Positions 23,006 through 47,397 of a stretch of 64,000 nucleotides of DNA are shown here, in pieces. Source of the stretch: Polyangiaceae bacterium (GTDB taxonomy: Bacteria > Myxococcota_A > Polyangia > Polyangiales > Polyangiaceae); contig WQZB01000007.1 in assembly GCA_009780955.1 (NCBI GenBank), forward strand, positions 1 to 64,000, in the 5' to 3' direction. Position numbers and translations under genes: made by a program. The notes beneath the pieces were generated by a model that saw only the letters and a list, made by a program, of their open reading frames with translations, made no database searches and was not told the origin of the DNA. Each line of letters opens with the position of its first letter. Positions within the stretch are counted from its first letter, which is position 1.

Positions 23006-23584
23006 TTATTTGAGATTCTCGCTCGCAAAGTCCCAATTCACGAGATTCGTTAGGAACGTTTCGATGTATTTGGGCCGGAGATTTCGGTGGTCAATGTAAT
23101 ATGCGTGTTCCCATACGTCGATCGTGAGCAATGCTTTTTTGCCGTGCTTCATGGGCAAATCAGCATTCGCCGTTTTCATGATCGAGAGCTTGCCACCGTC
23201 GAGGGCAAGCCATGCCCAGCCTGAACCAAACTGCGTGGCCGCCGCATTCGAGAATTCCTCCTTGAATTTGTCGAAGGAGCCAAAGTCTCGTGTGATGGCC
23301 GCCGCGAGATTGCCTGTTGGCTGTCCGCCGCCTTTGGGCTTCATGCAATTCCAAAAGAATGTGTGATTCCATATTTGCGCGGCGTTATTGAAAATACCAC
23401 CCTCGGCAACTTTGATGATGCCCTCGAGGCTTTGGTTCGCCTCAGGCTTGCCCTCGAGCAGCTTATTGAGGTTGTTCACGTAGGCCGCGTGGTGTTTGCC
23501 GTGGTGGTATTCGAGCGTTTCGGCCGACATGTACGGGGCAAGGGCGTCTTTCGCGTACGGCAGGTTCGGAAGCGTGAATGCCAT
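23006..23584 (-). CDS. sodB: Superoxide dismutase, iron type
   Basis: The 192-residue protein is a complete Fe/Mn-SOD: LEYHHGKHHAAYVNNLN, then NAAQIWNHTFFWNCM, then QFGSGWAWL, and finally DVWEHAYYIDHRN. The metal ligands are the two N-terminal-half His plus Asp and His of DVWEH. The Gln in NAAQIWNH is the position that favours the iron form. It converts superoxide to oxygen and peroxide in the cytoplasm. ATG 23584 has an excellent ribosome site (AAGGAG). A family B repeat copy (23601-23617) sits directly upstream of that site, so the repeat forms part of the sodB leader. dnaJ lies upstream on the same strand. Confidence 0.97.
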   Translation of the reverse strand: MAFTLPNLPYAKDALAPYMSAETLEYHHGKHHAAYVNNLNKLLEGKPEANQSLEGIIKVAEGGIFNNAAQIWNHTFFWNCMKPKGGGQPTGNLAAAITRDFGSFDKFKEEFSNAAATQFGSGWAWLALDGGKLSIMKTANADLPMKHGKKALLTIDVWEHAYYIDHRNLRPKYIETFLTNLVNWDFASENLK

Positions 23585-23600
23585 GGTTTCGATCTCCTTG

Positions 23601-23617
23601 TTAACTTGAAAGCGGTC
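23601..23617 (-). repeat. Family B repeat core in the sodB leader
   Basis: On the minus strand the segment reads GACCGCTTTCAAGTTAA and runs directly into the AAGGAG ribosome site of sodB. Confidence 0.65.
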
Positions 23618-23741
23618 TTGCGTGGAATTCAAGCGACCATAGGCGCCTGCCGCGAAGTTGAAAAGAGGCACGAGTGATGCGCGAGCCGCGGCAGCTTGGT
23701 GCCGATCGATTGCCGCGATTGGCATTCGTTCCCGTCAGGCT

Positions 23742-24860: not shown

Positions 24861-24962
24861 CGGCTTCTTCACGTAGCACGCGGGCGCCGGCGGTGGCAGT
24901 CCCGACAATAGAATTGCATGCTACAAGGTCTTTGCTCTTTCTCGTTCTTGCCAAACTCCGCG

Positions 24963-26231
24963 ATGGGCACTCACCTAGCATCGATCGCAGCGTTCGCATT
25001 CACGTCGGCATTGGCGCTCGGCTGTCCGTCATCGTCGATCTCGACGATGGCGGACACGGCGGACGCAACGGCGAGTCCGCAAGCGAGTGCAATGCCCGCA
25101 CCCCTCGCCAACGTCACCACCTCACCGAGCGCCACACCGGCGATCGCCATGCCCGAGGGCGGCCCGCTTCCCATACCGATGCGAAGCGATGTTCCTCTGC
25201 CGCCCGACACGCCACCGCACGACGTGCGCGACATGGCTACGGGCTACGCCCTTTCAGCGGTCTTTCGGCAGGGCGAGCTCATTGGGCCGCCGCGCGCTCC
25301 GGAGGTCAATGCATTGGGCATCGATGCCGCGCGCCGGAAGACCGAGCTTCGCCTCGCCATCGATCTCGGCATCTCGCGCATGCGCATGGTGCTTGTCGGT
25401 CAAGGCTTCGTTCTGCCGTCGGACACCGAAATCCGTGCGCGATCGGATAGGTTCGGTCACATCGTTGTGTGGCCCGACGCAACGTACAGGCCGTTTGGAC
25501 CTGGAGCCTTGCGAGCGCTGCTTGGCGAGCGACGGTTCGATGTGGCGCCGCTCACGTCGGCAGACGTTGTCTCGAAAGGTGAGGGCAGCAAACGAATCGG
25601 CATTCGCGTGCGGAGGGTCGAAGTAACAACACGCGCGGCGCGCGCGCTTTTCGAAATCGGTCATCTTCCAGATCTTGGCGACAGCGGTATTTTGCTTTGC
25701 CGTACGCTGCTCGATCTCGTCAATGCACCGCCGACCACGCCGATGTGCGGTCTCGACGAGTTGCCAATGCGTGCCGAGCTCCGGTGGGCGAACCAGGGCT
25801 CGTTCGGCTTTGAGTTGACTCAGGTGTTGAAGAAGAACGACATCGCAACTGCTACGCTTCTCGTTCCACCGCCTACGGCTGTGTTCGCCGAGACCCCCAT
25901 TGGCGGTGCAAACGTTAAGACGACCCAGATCGAGCTCGGCCCGCAAGAGCTCGCGGCGTTCCGCACACTGCCCGTCGATGTCCCCATTGCGGCTGGCCAG
26001 GCATCGGAAGGGCTCACAATCATCAATGCGACCGATGAACTTCGCATCGTATCGATCGACGGCGTGACCGTGGCGTGGGCAGCACCGGGCGCGCGCGATG
26101 TCGTTGTCGGCCTTCCTCATGGTCGTTACAATGTTCAGTGGCGCACGTTCCTCGGAGATATGCTAGCGCCATCGTCGCTCGTCGTTGTGCCGGGAACTTC
26201 CCAAATCGGCGGTGTCGACGGTGGAAAGTAG
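24963..26231 (+). CDS. Predicted lipoprotein, function unknown
   Basis: Starting at ATG 24963, the 422-residue product has a lipoprotein signal: MGTHLASIAAFAFTSALALG followed by the lipobox Cys (LALG-C). A Ser/Thr/Ala/Pro linker of ~60 residues follows. The rest is a mixed alpha/beta region I do not recognise. It has GRYNVQWRTFLGD near the end, resembling a carboxypeptidase-regulatory or PEGA-like beta unit (LRIVSIDGVTVAW...HGRYNVQW). An upstream ATG at 24918 is possible, but the signal peptide then begins late. It is divergent from dnaJ and stands alone before a 179-bp gap. No function is assigned. Confidence 0.7.
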   Translation: MGTHLASIAAFAFTSALALGCPSSSISTMADTADATASPQASAMPAPLANVTTSPSATPAIAMPEGGPLPIPMRSDVPLPPDTPPHDVRDMATGYALSAVFRQGELIGPPRAPEVNALGIDAARRKTELRLAIDLGISRMRMVLVGQGFVLPSDTEIRARSDRFGHIVVWPDATYRPFGPGALRALLGERRFDVAPLTSADVVSKGEGSKRIGIRVRRVEVTTRAARALFEIGHLPDLGDSGILLCRTLLDLVNAPPTTPMCGLDELPMRAELRWANQGSFGFELTQVLKKNDIATATLLVPPPTAVFAETPIGGANVKTTQIELGPQELAAFRTLPVDVPIAAGQASEGLTIINATDELRIVSIDGVTVAWAAPGARDVVVGLPHGRYNVQWRTFLGDMLAPSSLVVVPGTSQIGGVDGGK

Positions 26232-26410
26232 CCGTCCTAGCAGTCATGCTTGTTTATGTCTTACTCATGCAGAACGTGTAGGCCTTCACGTAAATCAATG
26301 CATATGCTTGACGATTCCTTCGCAGTTCCGGTCATCGAGGAGTATGGTTGTGAACCATGTGGCATGCTAACACATGCAGAATGCATATTTCTTGATGTGG
26401 GAGCGCCATC

Positions 26411-28498
26411 GTGATTTCGCTTGATGAATCGGCGCGCCTTAGCGCTGCGCGCGTGGGGTCGGTGCTCAAGAACAAGTGGGTGCTCAACGCGCTCATTGGT
26501 GTGGGGGGTATGGCTGCCGTTTATTCGGCAACGCATCGCAATGGCAGCCGAGCGGCCGTCAAAATTTTGCATCCCGAGCTTGCAGGCAACGCGGCCGTTC
26601 GCGCCCGCTTCCAGCGCGAGGGGTATGCAGCCAACGCGATTGAGCATCCTGGCGTCGTGCGCGTGCTCGACGATGACGTTACTGAAGACGGTCTCGCCTT
26701 TCTCGTGATGGATCTGCTCGAAGGCGAAACGCTCGAGCGACGGGCGCTTTCTTTGGGCGGCCGGCTTGGTGCAAGCGAGGTTCTCGAGCACACCGACGCA
26801 GTTCTCGACATTCTTGCCGCCGCGCACGATCGCAACGTGATTCATCGCGATCTCAAGCCCGACAATCTATTTCTGACCCGCGACGGGGTTATGAAGGTGC
26901 TCGATTTTGGGCTTGCAAGTGTCGACGAAAAGCTCTCATCGTCAATCCGCACGACTCGGGTTGGCTGGTCCATGGGCACACCGGGCTACATGTCGCCCGA
27001 GCAAGCACGTGGTGATTGGGCCGCCGTCGACGCGCGCAGCGATTTGTGGGCCCTTGGTGCGTCCATGTTCTCGCTGCTGTCGGGTCGCATCGTGCACGAC
27101 TCGGAAAACCCTCAAGAAAGTGTTGTGCGTGCGGCTACACGCCCCGCACCTTCGCTTGCGACGGTTGCGCCTGCGCTCCCGTCGTCACTTACGCGGCTGG
27201 TCGATCGCGCGCTTGCGTTTGACCCGCGCGAGCGCTTTCAATCCGCGGCGAGCATGCGCGTTGCACTTCGTCATGTTCGCGACGACTTTGCACCACGGGT
27301 ATCGTCACGTGTAGGCTCTCGTGTTGTCACCATTCCGGAGGTTGCCTTGTCCACTGCGCCACCGACCCGCAACACCGCCATGGAAATGATTAGTCCGGTC
27401 GAGATAGCTCCCGACACATTTTGGGTCGGCAAGCGCGACCCCAAGGCGATTTTTCACTCAAACCCATACTTGCGGATCTTCCGCGGGCAAGGGCCCGACG
27501 GTCGTCCTGTGCAGTTCAACTTGCTCGCCGATCCAGGGTCGAGTTCCGATTTCGCTGTGGTCTCGGCGAAAGTCTCGTCGTTGATCGGCTCGCTCGACAA
27601 GCTGTCGGCTCTGCACATCAACCATCAAGATCCCGACGTTGGTTCTTCGGCGTTCGTGATTTCGATGCGCTTCGCACCGAGGGCGCTGATTCTCTCGTCC
27701 GAGGCCACGTGGCGGCTCATCGTGCACTTCAACCTTCCGCGCGAGCGCTATGTCGATCTCGATAAGTTTGCGCAGGGCTTCAAGCTGCCAACGGGGCACA
27801 CGATGATTCCGGTGCCGACTCCGTTCTGTCACTTCCGCGGCTCGACCATGCTTTACGATCACGCCACGCGCGTCCTGTTTTCGGGCGATCTTTTTGGCGG
27901 CGTGACCACTGAGGGTGTCGAAGGCTTGTGGGCCGACGAGTCCGACTGGCCAGGCATGCGAGCGTTTCACCAGATGTACATGCCCACGCAACGGGCTCTC
28001 GCCAATGCCGTGAGCGCAATCCGAAAGTTGGATCCACCGGTCGAAATCATTGCGCCTCAACACGGGCGAGTCATCCGCGGCGGCCTTGTCGACACCTTCC
28101 TCGACCGGCTCGAGCACTTGCCTGTCGGCCTCGACGTCATGGAAGACGCCGAGCAGGGCGTTGACATGCTCGTGGCTTGGAACAGCGTTTTGCATCGGGT
28201 GGTGAACACGGCAAACATGATCTTCGGCGAAGACGTCGAGCCTCGCTTGCTTGCTTACCAGCCGCTTCATGAAACGCTCGTTGTCGAAGACGACGAGCTC
28301 ACAGTGACGTCACTTGCGCGGTGGACTGTTGGCGTTGTCGTTGCCGTTCTCACCACGGGGCAGAAGCCTTCCATTGCGAATCCAATCAAGCTCGAAGCCA
28401 TTCTTGCGTGCGAAGAGCTCGATTTGCCGTCGCCCGAGTTGCGCATCGAGGACGCCGAAGCCTCCGCGGAGGATGCGGCACCCATTGCAACGACCTAA
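26411..28498 (+). CDS. Ser/Thr protein kinase fused to a flavodiiron-type MBL domain
   Basis: The 695-residue protein has an intact N-terminal kinase domain: glycine loop IGVGGMAAVY, Lys51 in AAVKIL, NVIHRDLKPDN near 145, DFG near 165, and GTPGYMSPEQARG. From about 336 (DTFWVGKRDPKAIF) to 560 there is an MBL domain resembling the diiron domain of flavodiiron proteins. It has NHQDPDVG near 404 (family HxExDH), CHFRG near 473, LFSGDLFGG near 489 and PQHGRVI near 548. All six metal-ligand positions have a His or Asp, with Asp replacing the usual Glu. There is no flavodoxin domain, and about 130 further residues follow. I infer a kinase gated by an O2, NO or redox-responsive diiron site. GTG 26411 has GGGAG 7 bp upstream. 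No membrane segment is seen, so it is cytoplasmic. Confidence 0.85.
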   Translation: MISLDESARLSAARVGSVLKNKWVLNALIGVGGMAAVYSATHRNGSRAAVKILHPELAGNAAVRARFQREGYAANAIEHPGVVRVLDDDVTEDGLAFLVMDLLEGETLERRALSLGGRLGASEVLEHTDAVLDILAAAHDRNVIHRDLKPDNLFLTRDGVMKVLDFGLASVDEKLSSSIRTTRVGWSMGTPGYMSPEQARGDWAAVDARSDLWALGASMFSLLSGRIVHDSENPQESVVRAATRPAPSLATVAPALPSSLTRLVDRALAFDPRERFQSAASMRVALRHVRDDFAPRVSSRVGSRVVTIPEVALSTAPPTRNTAMEMISPVEIAPDTFWVGKRDPKAIFHSNPYLRIFRGQGPDGRPVQFNLLADPGSSSDFAVVSAKVSSLIGSLDKLSALHINHQDPDVGSSAFVISMRFAPRALILSSEATWRLIVHFNLPRERYVDLDKFAQGFKLPTGHTMIPVPTPFCHFRGSTMLYDHATRVLFSGDLFGGVTTEGVEGLWADESDWPGMRAFHQMYMPTQRALANAVSAIRKLDPPVEIIAPQHGRVIRGGLVDTFLDRLEHLPVGLDVMEDAEQGVDMLVAWNSVLHRVVNTANMIFGEDVEPRLLAYQPLHETLVVEDDELTVTSLARWTVGVVVAVLTTGQKPSIANPIKLEAILACEELDLPSPELRIEDAEASAEDAAPIATT

Positions 28499-43621: not shown

Positions 43622-45427
43622 ATGAATGCATATTCTCGGCAAAAGGACAAAGTTTGTGCGACCCTTGTTCCGATGACGATGACGCAGGGCATAAGCGCGG
43701 AGGTTCCGCTGGTTGGGCAAACGATAGCCGGCAAGTACAAGGTGATTCGTCTGCTCGGCGAAGGCGGCATGGGTTGCGTGTATCTCGCCGAACAGCAACT
43801 CGGTTCGGCCGCCAGGAAAGTCGCGCTCAAAACGCTGCACAAGCATTTGTCGCACGACGCAAGCATCCAAGCGCGCTTCGATCGCGAGGCCGGCACCGTC
43901 GCGGCCCTGCAGCACCCGAACACGATTCAGGTGTTCGACTACGGCAAGATGGATGACGGCACGCTCTACATCGTTATGGAGTTCGTTCAGGGCAGGAGCG
44001 TTGCCGACATCCTCGAGAAGGACGGGCCAATGCCGCCCGCGCGTGTCGAGCACATCATGAGGCAGGTGTGCGGCTCGCTCGAAGAGGCGCACATAGCTGG
44101 CATCATTCACCGCGACTTGAAACCAGACAACGTGGTTCTCTGTGATCGCGCAGGTCAAAAAGATTGGGTCGAGGTGCTCGACTTCGGCATCGCAAAGCGA
44201 TCGAACGAGCACGATCCGAACGAGGCGAAACTCACGCAACAGGGCATGGTGCTTGGTACGCCACCGTACATGAGTCCCGAGCAATTCACCGGGCAGCCCA
44301 TTGATTCGCGCTCCGACATCTACGCGATCGGCGTGATGGCGTACGAAATGCTCACCGCGAACTTGCCATTCCAGGCCAACACCGCGTGGGAGTGGGCGTC
44401 GAAGCACATGACCGAGCTTCCAACACCGCTCGAACGCCAGCCGCTCGGCGCGCAGGTGCCCGAGGCCATGCGTGCGGCGATCATGAAGGCGCTCTCAAAA
44501 AACCGTGACGATCGCTTCGCCACGGCACACGAGTTCATCGACGCGTTCACGGGTACGCAAAGTGCGCAGGGCACGCTTGGCATGGGCGCGCCAGCGGTGA
44601 GCGTGGCAAGTGCAGCGAGTGGCGGCGCACCAGGCGTCGGCGCCACTGCCGCGATGGGCACTCCTCCCGGTTTTGGCGCTGTGCCGGGACAACCAGGCCA
44701 ACAAGCCCAAATGGGCGGGCATGGAAGAACAGAAATGGCGCAGCCTGCAGTGGGTGCAGTCTACACGCCTCCTGCCATGGCAGCGTATGGGCCGCCTCCA
44801 GCCGCGGGAGGTTTCGGTCCTGGCGTTGCGCCATACCAGCAAGCCTTTGCCGGCGTGCCTGCACGCAAGGGCAAAGGGCGTTACTTTGCGATCGCGATGG
44901 CCGCAGTGGCCGCCGTCGTGCTTCTTGGTGGCGGTAGCTATGCCTTGCTGTCATCGAAGAAACCGTCGACCGGTGCGTCGAGCGCGCAGACCAGTCCCAG
45001 CGCAGTGCCGAGTACCACGGCGCATCCTGAGCCAACCACCACTGCGAGCGCACCGCCGCCGCCAGTACCACCGGTAGAAGAGCCGCAAACAACATCGGTT
45101 CCAGCGCTCGATTCGCCTGCGCAACAGTCTGCTTCTGCGCAAAAGGCCGTCGCCACGCCGCCTGCGGGTGGAAGCAAAGAGACGCCAAAGGCGGCCACGC
45201 CTACACCGAAGGCGGCCACGCCTACGCCGAAGCCGGCGGCCTCGATTCCCACGCCAATTCCTCACCAGGGATGGGGGTCGTCAAGAGGCGATTATTATCG
45301 CGATCGGGGCGATCGGAGTGACCCTCCGGCATGCGCGCAGGCCCGCTCGGCTCGCTCGAACCGCATGCCGGCAGCGATCATCGCGTCGCTCGAAAACAGG
45401 TGTCGTAGCGCGGGCGGCACGCCATAA
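43622..45427 (+). CDS. Receptor Ser/Thr protein kinase A, Pro-rich tail with C-terminal Cys motif
   Basis: The 601-residue protein has a kinase domain from about 36: LLGEGGMGCVYLAEQQ, VALKTLHKHL, IIHRDLKPDNVVL near 160, VLDFGIAKR near 186, and GTPPYMSPEQFTGQP. A Gly/Ala/Pro linker leads to one membrane helix near 422-443 (AIAMAAVAAVVLLGGGSYAL). A Pro/Thr/Ala-rich outside part ends with PACAQARSARSNRMPAAIIA, SLENRCRSAGG. The same C-terminal motif occurs in the neighbouring kinase. The domain outside the membrane is otherwise low complexity, so it has no obvious ligand fold. An internal start (43673 or 43679) is also possible. Confidence 0.88.
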   Translation: MNAYSRQKDKVCATLVPMTMTQGISAEVPLVGQTIAGKYKVIRLLGEGGMGCVYLAEQQLGSAARKVALKTLHKHLSHDASIQARFDREAGTVAALQHPNTIQVFDYGKMDDGTLYIVMEFVQGRSVADILEKDGPMPPARVEHIMRQVCGSLEEAHIAGIIHRDLKPDNVVLCDRAGQKDWVEVLDFGIAKRSNEHDPNEAKLTQQGMVLGTPPYMSPEQFTGQPIDSRSDIYAIGVMAYEMLTANLPFQANTAWEWASKHMTELPTPLERQPLGAQVPEAMRAAIMKALSKNRDDRFATAHEFIDAFTGTQSAQGTLGMGAPAVSVASAASGGAPGVGATAAMGTPPGFGAVPGQPGQQAQMGGHGRTEMAQPAVGAVYTPPAMAAYGPPPAAGGFGPGVAPYQQAFAGVPARKGKGRYFAIAMAAVAAVVLLGGGSYALLSSKKPSTGASSAQTSPSAVPSTTAHPEPTTTASAPPPPVPPVEEPQTTSVPALDSPAQQSASAQKAVATPPAGGSKETPKAATPTPKAATPTPKPAASIPTPIPHQGWGSSRGDYYRDRGDRSDPPACAQARSARSNRMPAAIIASLENRCRSAGGTP

Positions 45428-45480: not shown

Positions 45481-47397
45481 ATGGTGATGCAATGTCCCTC
45501 GTGCTACGCGACCGTTGACGGCACCCGGCCGTTCTGCTCGGCGTGCGGCGCACCGCTTCCCCGTCAAGACGCCGACCCGCTGATTGGTTGCGTAATTCAA
45601 GGGAAATACAAGATCGCACGCCTGCTCGGCGAGGGCGGCATGGGCGCGGTGTATGCCGGTGAGCAAGCACTTGGGCACACCACGCGAAGGGTTGCCATCA
45701 AGACGCTGCATCGACATTTGTCGAACGATCCCCAGATTCGCGAAAGATTTTATCGCGAGGCGGGCACGCTTGCCGGGCTCGAGCACCCCAACACCGTACA
45801 GGTTTTCGACTTCGGAACCACCGACGATGGCGTTCTGTACATCGTCATGGAGTTCGTGCAGGGCGAAAGCATTGCCGCGGCCCTCGAGAAAATCGGCCCC
45901 TTGCCGCTCGGGCGTGCAAAGAAAATTCTCGAGCAGATTTGTGGATCGCTTGGTGAAGCGCACGACAAAGGAATCATCCATCGCGATCTCAAACCGGACA
46001 ACGTGATCCTCACCGAGCGCGCTGGGCAGAAAGACTTCGTGAAAGTCCTCGACTTTGGCATTGCCAAGCGCAACGACGAGGAAGATCGCAACGAAGCGAA
46101 GCTCACACAGCAAGGCATGGTGCTTGGCACGCCGCCGTACATGAGCCCTGAGCAATTCACCGGACAGCCGCTCGACCGGCGCGCCGACATCTATTCGCTC
46201 GGCGTAATGGCCTACGAAATGCTCACCGGCGAGCTTCCTTTCACGGCGAAGAGTTCGTGGGAGTGGGCGACACTTCACATGACGTCCGCGCCGAAGCCAA
46301 TAGAAACGACGTCACGCGGTGCGGCGCTTCCTGAGTCGGTGCGTAGCGCGATCATGTGTGCGCTCTCGAAGGCCAAAGAGCAGCGTTTTTCGAGCGTGCA
46401 GGGGTTCTTCGGTAGCTTTTGCGGTGCGCCGCGCGATCGCTCGACGTTCGAGCGTACGCCAACGGCAATCGATCGTCCTGCAACCGTGCCGGCGGTTGCT
46501 TCTGGCGCTCGTGGGAATGAGCGGCCGGCCGTGATCGCACCATCGGGCGATGATTCTCTCAAAGGCGGAACGCAAATCGGCGAGCCAATATCGTTGCCAG
46601 AGGCAGGTTTCGGTGGTGCATCGCTTGCGCCGTCGTACGGCATGCAACCGAGTGCAATGGCTTACGGTGTGCACTCCAGCGTGCCGTATGCACCACCGCT
46701 CGTGGCCTCCGGCAGGAAAGGCAAGGGGCGCTTCGCGTTGCTCGTGACCATGCTCGGCATCGGAGCGGCCATTGCTGCAGTGGGCGTATATCTCGCCAGC
46801 ACTGGCGCAATTGGCGGCGGCACGTCGTCCGGGCCGGCAATGCCCATAGCCTTCGATGCAGCCGCCACAACGCCAACGCCAACGCCAACGGTTGCGGCGT
46901 CAACTGCGCATGCGCCGCTCGGTACGTCAGCACCGCTTACTGAAGCACCGCCGCTGCCAGGCGCCGCGCGCGCTACGCGCGCTACGGCAACGCTGGCGGC
47001 TGCACCGCCGCAGCGTGCTGCAACACCTGCGTCGCACCATGCACCCGGCACGCCGGCTTCGCAGCACGCATCGGCCACGCCAGCCACACCCACGCCGCCG
47101 TCTGCTCAGACGCCATCGGAAACTTCATCAACGCTGCCCCCTTGGGTGTCAACGCCGCCGTACGTGTCGGCTCCCGCGCCAACCCCAACCCCGACGCCCA
47201 CGCCGCCGTACGTGTCAGCGCCCACGCCAACCCCAACGCCGCGGGGCGTTCCAGCGCCGCAGGCTGGTCCAGCGCCATACGGTGAGCCAGCCGTGTGCGC
47301 TCGGGCACGTTCGGCTCGCGCAAGCGGCATGCCCATAGCCATTGTCAATGCGCTGGAAGCGCGCTGCAGGGCGGAGGGCGACGGCAGCCGATACTAG
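45481..47397 (+). CDS. Receptor Ser/Thr protein kinase B with N-terminal zinc ribbon
   Basis: The 638-residue protein starts with a zinc ribbon (C5-x2-C8, C19-x2-C22) and then a complete kinase domain: LLGEGGMGAVYAGEQA, VAIKTLHRHL, IIHRDLKPDNVIL, VLDFGIAKRN and GTPPYMSPEQFTGQPLDRR. A linker, one membrane helix near 416-440, and a long Pro/Thr/Ala-rich outside region follow. The end is VCARARSARASGMPIAIVNA then LEARCRAEG, matching kinase A. It is 53 bp downstream of kinase A and clearly paralogous (tandem duplication). The ribbon resembles those in the two FHA proteins, which may point to a shared partner. Confidence 0.9.
   Translation: MVMQCPSCYATVDGTRPFCSACGAPLPRQDADPLIGCVIQGKYKIARLLGEGGMGAVYAGEQALGHTTRRVAIKTLHRHLSNDPQIRERFYREAGTLAGLEHPNTVQVFDFGTTDDGVLYIVMEFVQGESIAAALEKIGPLPLGRAKKILEQICGSLGEAHDKGIIHRDLKPDNVILTERAGQKDFVKVLDFGIAKRNDEEDRNEAKLTQQGMVLGTPPYMSPEQFTGQPLDRRADIYSLGVMAYEMLTGELPFTAKSSWEWATLHMTSAPKPIETTSRGAALPESVRSAIMCALSKAKEQRFSSVQGFFGSFCGAPRDRSTFERTPTAIDRPATVPAVASGARGNERPAVIAPSGDDSLKGGTQIGEPISLPEAGFGGASLAPSYGMQPSAMAYGVHSSVPYAPPLVASGRKGKGRFALLVTMLGIGAAIAAVGVYLASTGAIGGGTSSGPAMPIAFDAAATTPTPTPTVAASTAHAPLGTSAPLTEAPPLPGAARATRATATLAAAPPQRAATPASHHAPGTPASQHASATPATPTPPSAQTPSETSSTLPPWVSTPPYVSAPAPTPTPTPTPPYVSAPTPTPTPRGVPAPQAGPAPYGEPAVCARARSARASGMPIAIVNALEARCRAEGDGSRY

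Follow-up and report, generated by a model that had tools for sequence, protein, structure and literature searches.

A predicted soluble Ser/Thr kinase fused to an ODP-type diiron domain in Polyangiaceae, and its relatives in the Myxococcota

Architecture of the fusion gene

The window analysed here is a stretch of 64,000 nucleotides from a Polyangiaceae bacterium (GenBank assembly GCA_009780955.1, contig WQZB01000007.1, positions 1 to 64,000). Its forward strand carries at 26411-28498 an open reading frame, defined from the ORF list and its translation, which begins with GTG and encodes a protein of 695 aa that joins a kinase to an ODP domain. The sequence GGGAG is found at 26399-26403, seven bases 5' of the GTG, and the orthologue from another Polyangiaceae genome (L001/L012), which is 79% identical over the full length, starts at the same position but with ATG. 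From the N-terminus the protein comprises a PknB-like Ser/Thr protein kinase domain (aa 26-278; 26486-27244, + strand), a disordered linker (aa 296-320; 27296-27370, +), an ODP diiron sensor domain with a Pfam core at aa 370-552 (27518-28066, +) inside a fold of approximately aa 328-575, and a C-terminal domain (aa ~575-685; 28133-28465, +). The linker is recognized from pLDDT values under 50, and from a length and sequence that vary widely among members. A full-length AlphaFold model has a pLDDT of 87.3 and a pTM of 0.52, a value at which the relative arrangement of the domains is uncertain. No transmembrane helix was found in the protein (the top 19-residue hydropathy is 1.6), and it is most likely soluble and cytosolic.

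The kinase half

The N-terminal half is shown by computation to be an intact PknB-like Ser/Thr kinase, predicted to be active from its motifs. In a Pfam scan aa 26-278 match Pkinase (PF00069, E 5.7e-35), and PknB is the best PDB match both by sequence and by fold. Each of the features by which Hanks-type kinases are recognized (the catalytic Lys, HRD, DFG and GTPxYMxPEQ) is present in the sequence: Lys51 lies in AVK, HRDLKPDN runs from residue 145, DFG from 165, and GTPGYMSPEQ occupies residues 189-198. A first-pass annotation of this DNA had described a complete kinase domain with Lys51, HRD near 145 and DFG near 165, and the motifs and the Pkinase match bear this out. The low E-values of this match and of the ODP match described below (E 2.3e-46) rule out chance similarity. 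Compared with Hanks kinases of the PknB/StkP type, the kinase fold and catalytic motifs are shared, whereas the fusion has neither a membrane helix nor PASTA repeats, and any sensing would be cytosolic.

All 18 fusions examined retain the kinase motifs, a few of them in the variant forms HCD or DLG. Such variants occur among some of the kinases of group c (see below), which counts against an explanation of these proteins as sensor-controlled kinases. The kinase domains of L017, L053 and L146 have HCD in place of HRD and DLG in place of DFG, and may be non-RD kinases with a different mode of activation.

The ODP half and its predicted metal site

The metallo-β-lactamase (MBL) half of the protein is an ODP, a member of the family of the two-iron O2/Fe sensor of chemotaxis, as judged by sequence comparison. 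The Pfam scan matches aa 370-552 to ODP (PF19583) with E 2.3e-46 and 158.6 bits, against a curated cut-off of 27.2. The closest solved structures by sequence are the ODPs 6qrq (E ~6e-26) and 6qnm (E ~9e-26), below which flavodiiron enzymes rank with E 5e-7 or weaker. By fold, Foldseek pairs this half with the zinc-loaded Thermotoga maritima ODP 6qwo (E 1e-16, TM 0.82 by target; rmsd 2.8 over 253 columns). When aligned, HQDPDV, the next His, SGD and APQHG are common to the fusion, 6qrq and 6qnm. The six predicted ligands are H405, D407 and D409 in HQDPD (27623-27637, +; identical in the solved ODPs), H474 in CHFRG (27830-27832, +; aligned with the His of the solved ODPs), D493 in SGDLFGG (27887-27889, +) and H551 in APQHGR (28061-28063, +). 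All six positions are invariant in 34 of the 34 aligned sequences, a set made up of kinase fusions, module-only proteins and other ODPs, and the fold match and the alignment imply that they cluster in space.

The annotation had read this half as a ‘flavodiiron-type’ MBL domain on the strength of NHQDPDVG, CHFRG, LFSGDLFGG and PQHGRVI, and had noted that every metal position keeps a ligand-capable residue and that a flavodoxin domain is missing. The motifs, the ligands and the missing flavodoxin domain (none was found in Pfam and NCBIfam scans) are all confirmed; the description as a diiron MBL domain without flavodoxin thus holds, and it is the label that is too loose, the domain belonging specifically to the ODP family (PF19583, HxDxDV). 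This half is assigned as an ODP and not as a flavodiiron enzyme because its ligands match those of the solved ODPs and because flavodoxin is absent. Flavodiiron proteins and flavorubredoxin share the MBL fold with a diiron site as distant homologues, and differ in having a C-terminal flavodoxin domain and the motif H-x-E-x-D-H in place of the ODP-type H-x-D-x-D-V; the identity as a flavodiiron enzyme was rejected on both counts. Membership of the chemotaxis subgroup of ODPs, whose genes are coupled to a chemoreceptor gene, was likewise not assigned: the neighbouring window genes that were scanned include no chemoreceptor, and the ODP shares its chain with a kinase.

That the MBL part might nonetheless be an enzyme, an O2 or NO reductase or a hydrolase to which the kinase is incidental or acts as controller, appears very unlikely. 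Members of the flavodiiron family, diiron proteins with an MBL fold, do reduce O2 or NO, and a weak similarity to flavorubredoxin can be measured (E 4e-6), but the fusion contains neither flavodoxin nor any other electron donor domain, its motif is that of ODPs, and ODP relatives are repeatedly fused to signalling domains. The earlier preference for sensing over catalysis is thus supported by the family assignment, the matches to solved ODPs, the invariant ligands and the joining of the domain to three unrelated kinases.

The signal is a separate matter. The annotation had named O2, NO or redox state; O2 (and Fe2+) is the better-founded part of that proposal, because the characterized ODP senses O2 and Fe2+, and nothing points firmly to NO. 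The predicted site could also carry a metal other than iron, and one alternative is that the ODP part mainly reports the supply of iron, or of another metal, with the metal-loaded and apo forms acting as the switch. The characterized ODP is called an Fe[II] and oxygen sensor in the title of its paper, as given in a reference of PMC7319448, and the zinc-loaded structure 6qwo also fits a metal-supply role. We nevertheless consider this alternative unlikely: a plain metal sensor would not require the full and wholly conserved ligand set of O2-binding ODPs, and no iron-uptake genes were recognized near the fusion.

A conserved C-terminal domain

The last part of the protein, residues ~575-685, had gone unmentioned in the first-pass annotation and forms a conserved helical domain of about 115 residues. 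Folded alone it is predicted with a pLDDT of 88 as a long helix of 40 residues, a β-hairpin and two helices. Both the kinase fusions and the stand-alone ODP relatives keep it, the group c fusions in diverged form. The domain matches no known family and appears undescribed in the literature searched: no Pfam match was found, the PDB sequence search gave nothing beyond a designed repeat protein (E 0.02-0.03), and no Foldseek match fell under E 1. The VIA search gave a best Z of 5.0. H-NOX took fold ranks 1-2, weakly (Foldseek E 2, Z 5.0); profile comparison with 14 H-NOX domains did not support the resemblance (hhalign probability 0.1%), which was dropped. The search for relatives of the domain also traced DUF2378, a myxobacterial family, within the phylum.

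Distribution and repeated joining to kinases

The first-pass annotation had suggested a search for the same domain order across the Myxococcota, and kinase-ODP fusions are found in at least 19 genomes of that phylum. Several further Myxococcota genomes, including those of Cystobacterineae, encode stand-alone proteins consisting of the ODP and C-terminal domains. The Cystobacterineae samples with these stand-alone proteins presumably come from termite gut, as judged from the isolate names. ODP-GGDEF proteins occur in both Myxococcota (L055, L056, L057, L059) and Pseudomonadota (L211, L213, L217, L219-L221) and form a separate ODP clade. The survey covered the Myxococcota and 398 Pseudomonadota genomes; the latter contain many ODPs, none of which matches past query residue 308 of 370; the whole C-terminal domain is in no ODP match among these 398 genomes, and no kinase was seen at the 15 Pseudomonadota ODP loci inspected. 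The window's own genome has one ODP and three COX1-family matches, and gave no match to cytochrome bd subunit I. At one locus (L002:7012-8181 / L073:2951-4120) a second ODP gene lies directly downstream of the kinase-ODP fusion, with its own C-terminal part and its metal ligands kept.

The fused kinases fall into three clans. Group a, to which the kinase of the window belongs, is a family of its own that lies inside a large kinase clan bearing other tails; group b is family f29; and group c consists of kinases with an N-terminal cysteine-pair motif. A single clade for all fused kinases, and with it a single origin, was rejected by an AU test (p 1.8e-28), and forcing pairs together gave p 7e-63 for a+c, p 6e-5 for b+c and p 0.014 for a+b, the separation of the group a from the group b kinases being moderately supported. 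The ODP parts of the fusions and the stand-alone modules, by contrast, form one clade (support 99/96). Because one ODP clade is thus paired with three unrelated kinase clans, either the module would have been joined to kinases on three or more occasions, or an old fusion would have had its kinase replaced. That the module is found again and again with signalling outputs is the chief reason for regarding the ODP as the sensor of the kinase, and it suggests a recurring, putative type of O2- or iron-responsive kinase.

The same comparisons bear on signalling in the reverse direction, in which the kinase would phosphorylate its own ODP or C-terminal part and so set the function of the ODP. The stand-alone proteins, whose genes encode no kinase, indicate that the module also exists independently. 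Reverse signalling is nevertheless highly improbable in our view, given that L146, a close kinase paralogue in group c, has GAF and STAS domains, which are typical input or partner domains, in the slot of the ODP, and that ODPs elsewhere precede GGDEF output domains.

Genomic neighbourhood

A conserved O2- or NO-related neighbourhood was sought in ~25 loci, and yielded only single cases that do not recur in the near relatives examined. The window has a Fe/Mn superoxide dismutase gene at 23006-23725, but no such gene was seen flanking the fusion in the close relative L061; elsewhere a hemerythrin gene (L067), a ScdA/YtfE-like gene (L071) and a protoglobin histidine kinase beside a stand-alone ODP (L077) were each met once. 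These neighbours are suggestive, but none is well enough conserved to place the fusion in a pathway. At L077:4383-8600 (- strand) a stand-alone ODP gene with the C-terminal domain has behind it, in the same orientation, genes for the protoglobin histidine kinase and for response regulators, which places two presumed types of O2 sensor side by side.

The ScdA/YtfE-like gene near L071 is, together with the binding of NO by flavodiiron relatives, what could be cited for NO as the physiological ligand of the ODP kinase. This neighbour does not recur in two genomes of the same genus, however, and the characterized ODP is an O2 sensor; a role for NO strikes us as extremely improbable.

Proposed mechanism and relation to known systems

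We consider it probable that the ODP-type diiron domain sets the activity of the fusion, which would be a soluble Ser/Thr kinase of the cytosol. On this analysis it is most likely an O2- (or Fe2+-) responsive kinase, for which we infer the ligand, the metal, the direction of regulation and the targets alike. The diiron site of ODP is said to form a stable peroxo adduct, with a subunit association that differs between states, as Muok and colleagues reportedly described in 2019. By the same chemistry, the reduced diiron site of the fusion would bind O2 to give a stable peroxo adduct, as is reported for the ODP of Treponema. Metal loading and O2 binding might then alter the association or dimerization of the ODP subunits, or the way in which the ODP contacts the kinase over the disordered linker; the C-terminal domain would serve as a dimer or coupling element, and the change would switch trans-autophosphorylation and hence the phosphorylation of targets. 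The availability of Fe2+ would be read simultaneously with O2, because only an iron-loaded site could respond. As for the broader proposal, that a diiron-peroxo module of ODP and new C-terminal coupling domain has been plugged at least three times into unrelated Ser/Thr kinases to give cytosolic gas- or iron-gated Hanks kinases, we hold its chances to be evenly balanced.

The ODPs of Treponema denticola and T. maritima (6qnm, 6qrq, 6qwo) resemble the fusion in Pfam family, six ligands, fold and lack of flavodoxin. They are stand-alone proteins of ~250 aa, that of Treponema being coupled to a cytoplasmic chemoreceptor and CheA, whereas the ODP of the fusion has a Ser/Thr kinase before it and an additional domain after it. 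In Treponema, iron and oxygen bind directly to an ODP, which activates its receptor, according to work cited in PMC6978683 and PMC7666581, and ODPs fused to signal-transduction domains have already been reported in general terms (PMC7319448, citing Muok 2019). In the ODP-GGDEF diguanylate cyclases the ODP is likewise presumed to be the N-terminal sensor of a signalling protein; they differ in their c-di-GMP output and separate ODP clade, and no comparable C-terminal helical domain was found in them. Text searches of the literature found no paper on an ODP-kinase fusion, and the kinase version and its recurrence, like the new C-terminal domain, appear undescribed in the literature searched.

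The signals read by many soluble myxobacterial Ser/Thr kinases are mostly unknown, and a review of bacterial Hanks kinases makes no mention of oxygen (PMC6213207). Here a presumed sensor from a family with solved structures and known O2/Fe chemistry lies on the same soluble chain as the kinase, and therefore metal loading, O2 and kinase output could be measured together. If the proposed reading is true, ODP signalling would extend from chemotaxis to Ser/Thr phosphorylation, and a single module joined repeatedly to unrelated kinases would provide natural replicates for how coupling arises.

Other genes in the window and at related loci

Upstream of the fusion, at 24918-26231 (+), the window encodes a lipoprotein-like protein of 437 aa without a Pfam match, and in the close relative L001/L061 a similar gene of 426 aa likewise immediately precedes the fusion. 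Two adjacent Ser/Thr kinase genes at 43622-45427 and 45481-47397 (both +) have long tails without a Pfam match, the second also having an N-terminal zinc-ribbon match. At L065:13936-15789 (-) a fumarase-like lyase carries an N-terminal cyclic-nucleotide-binding domain.
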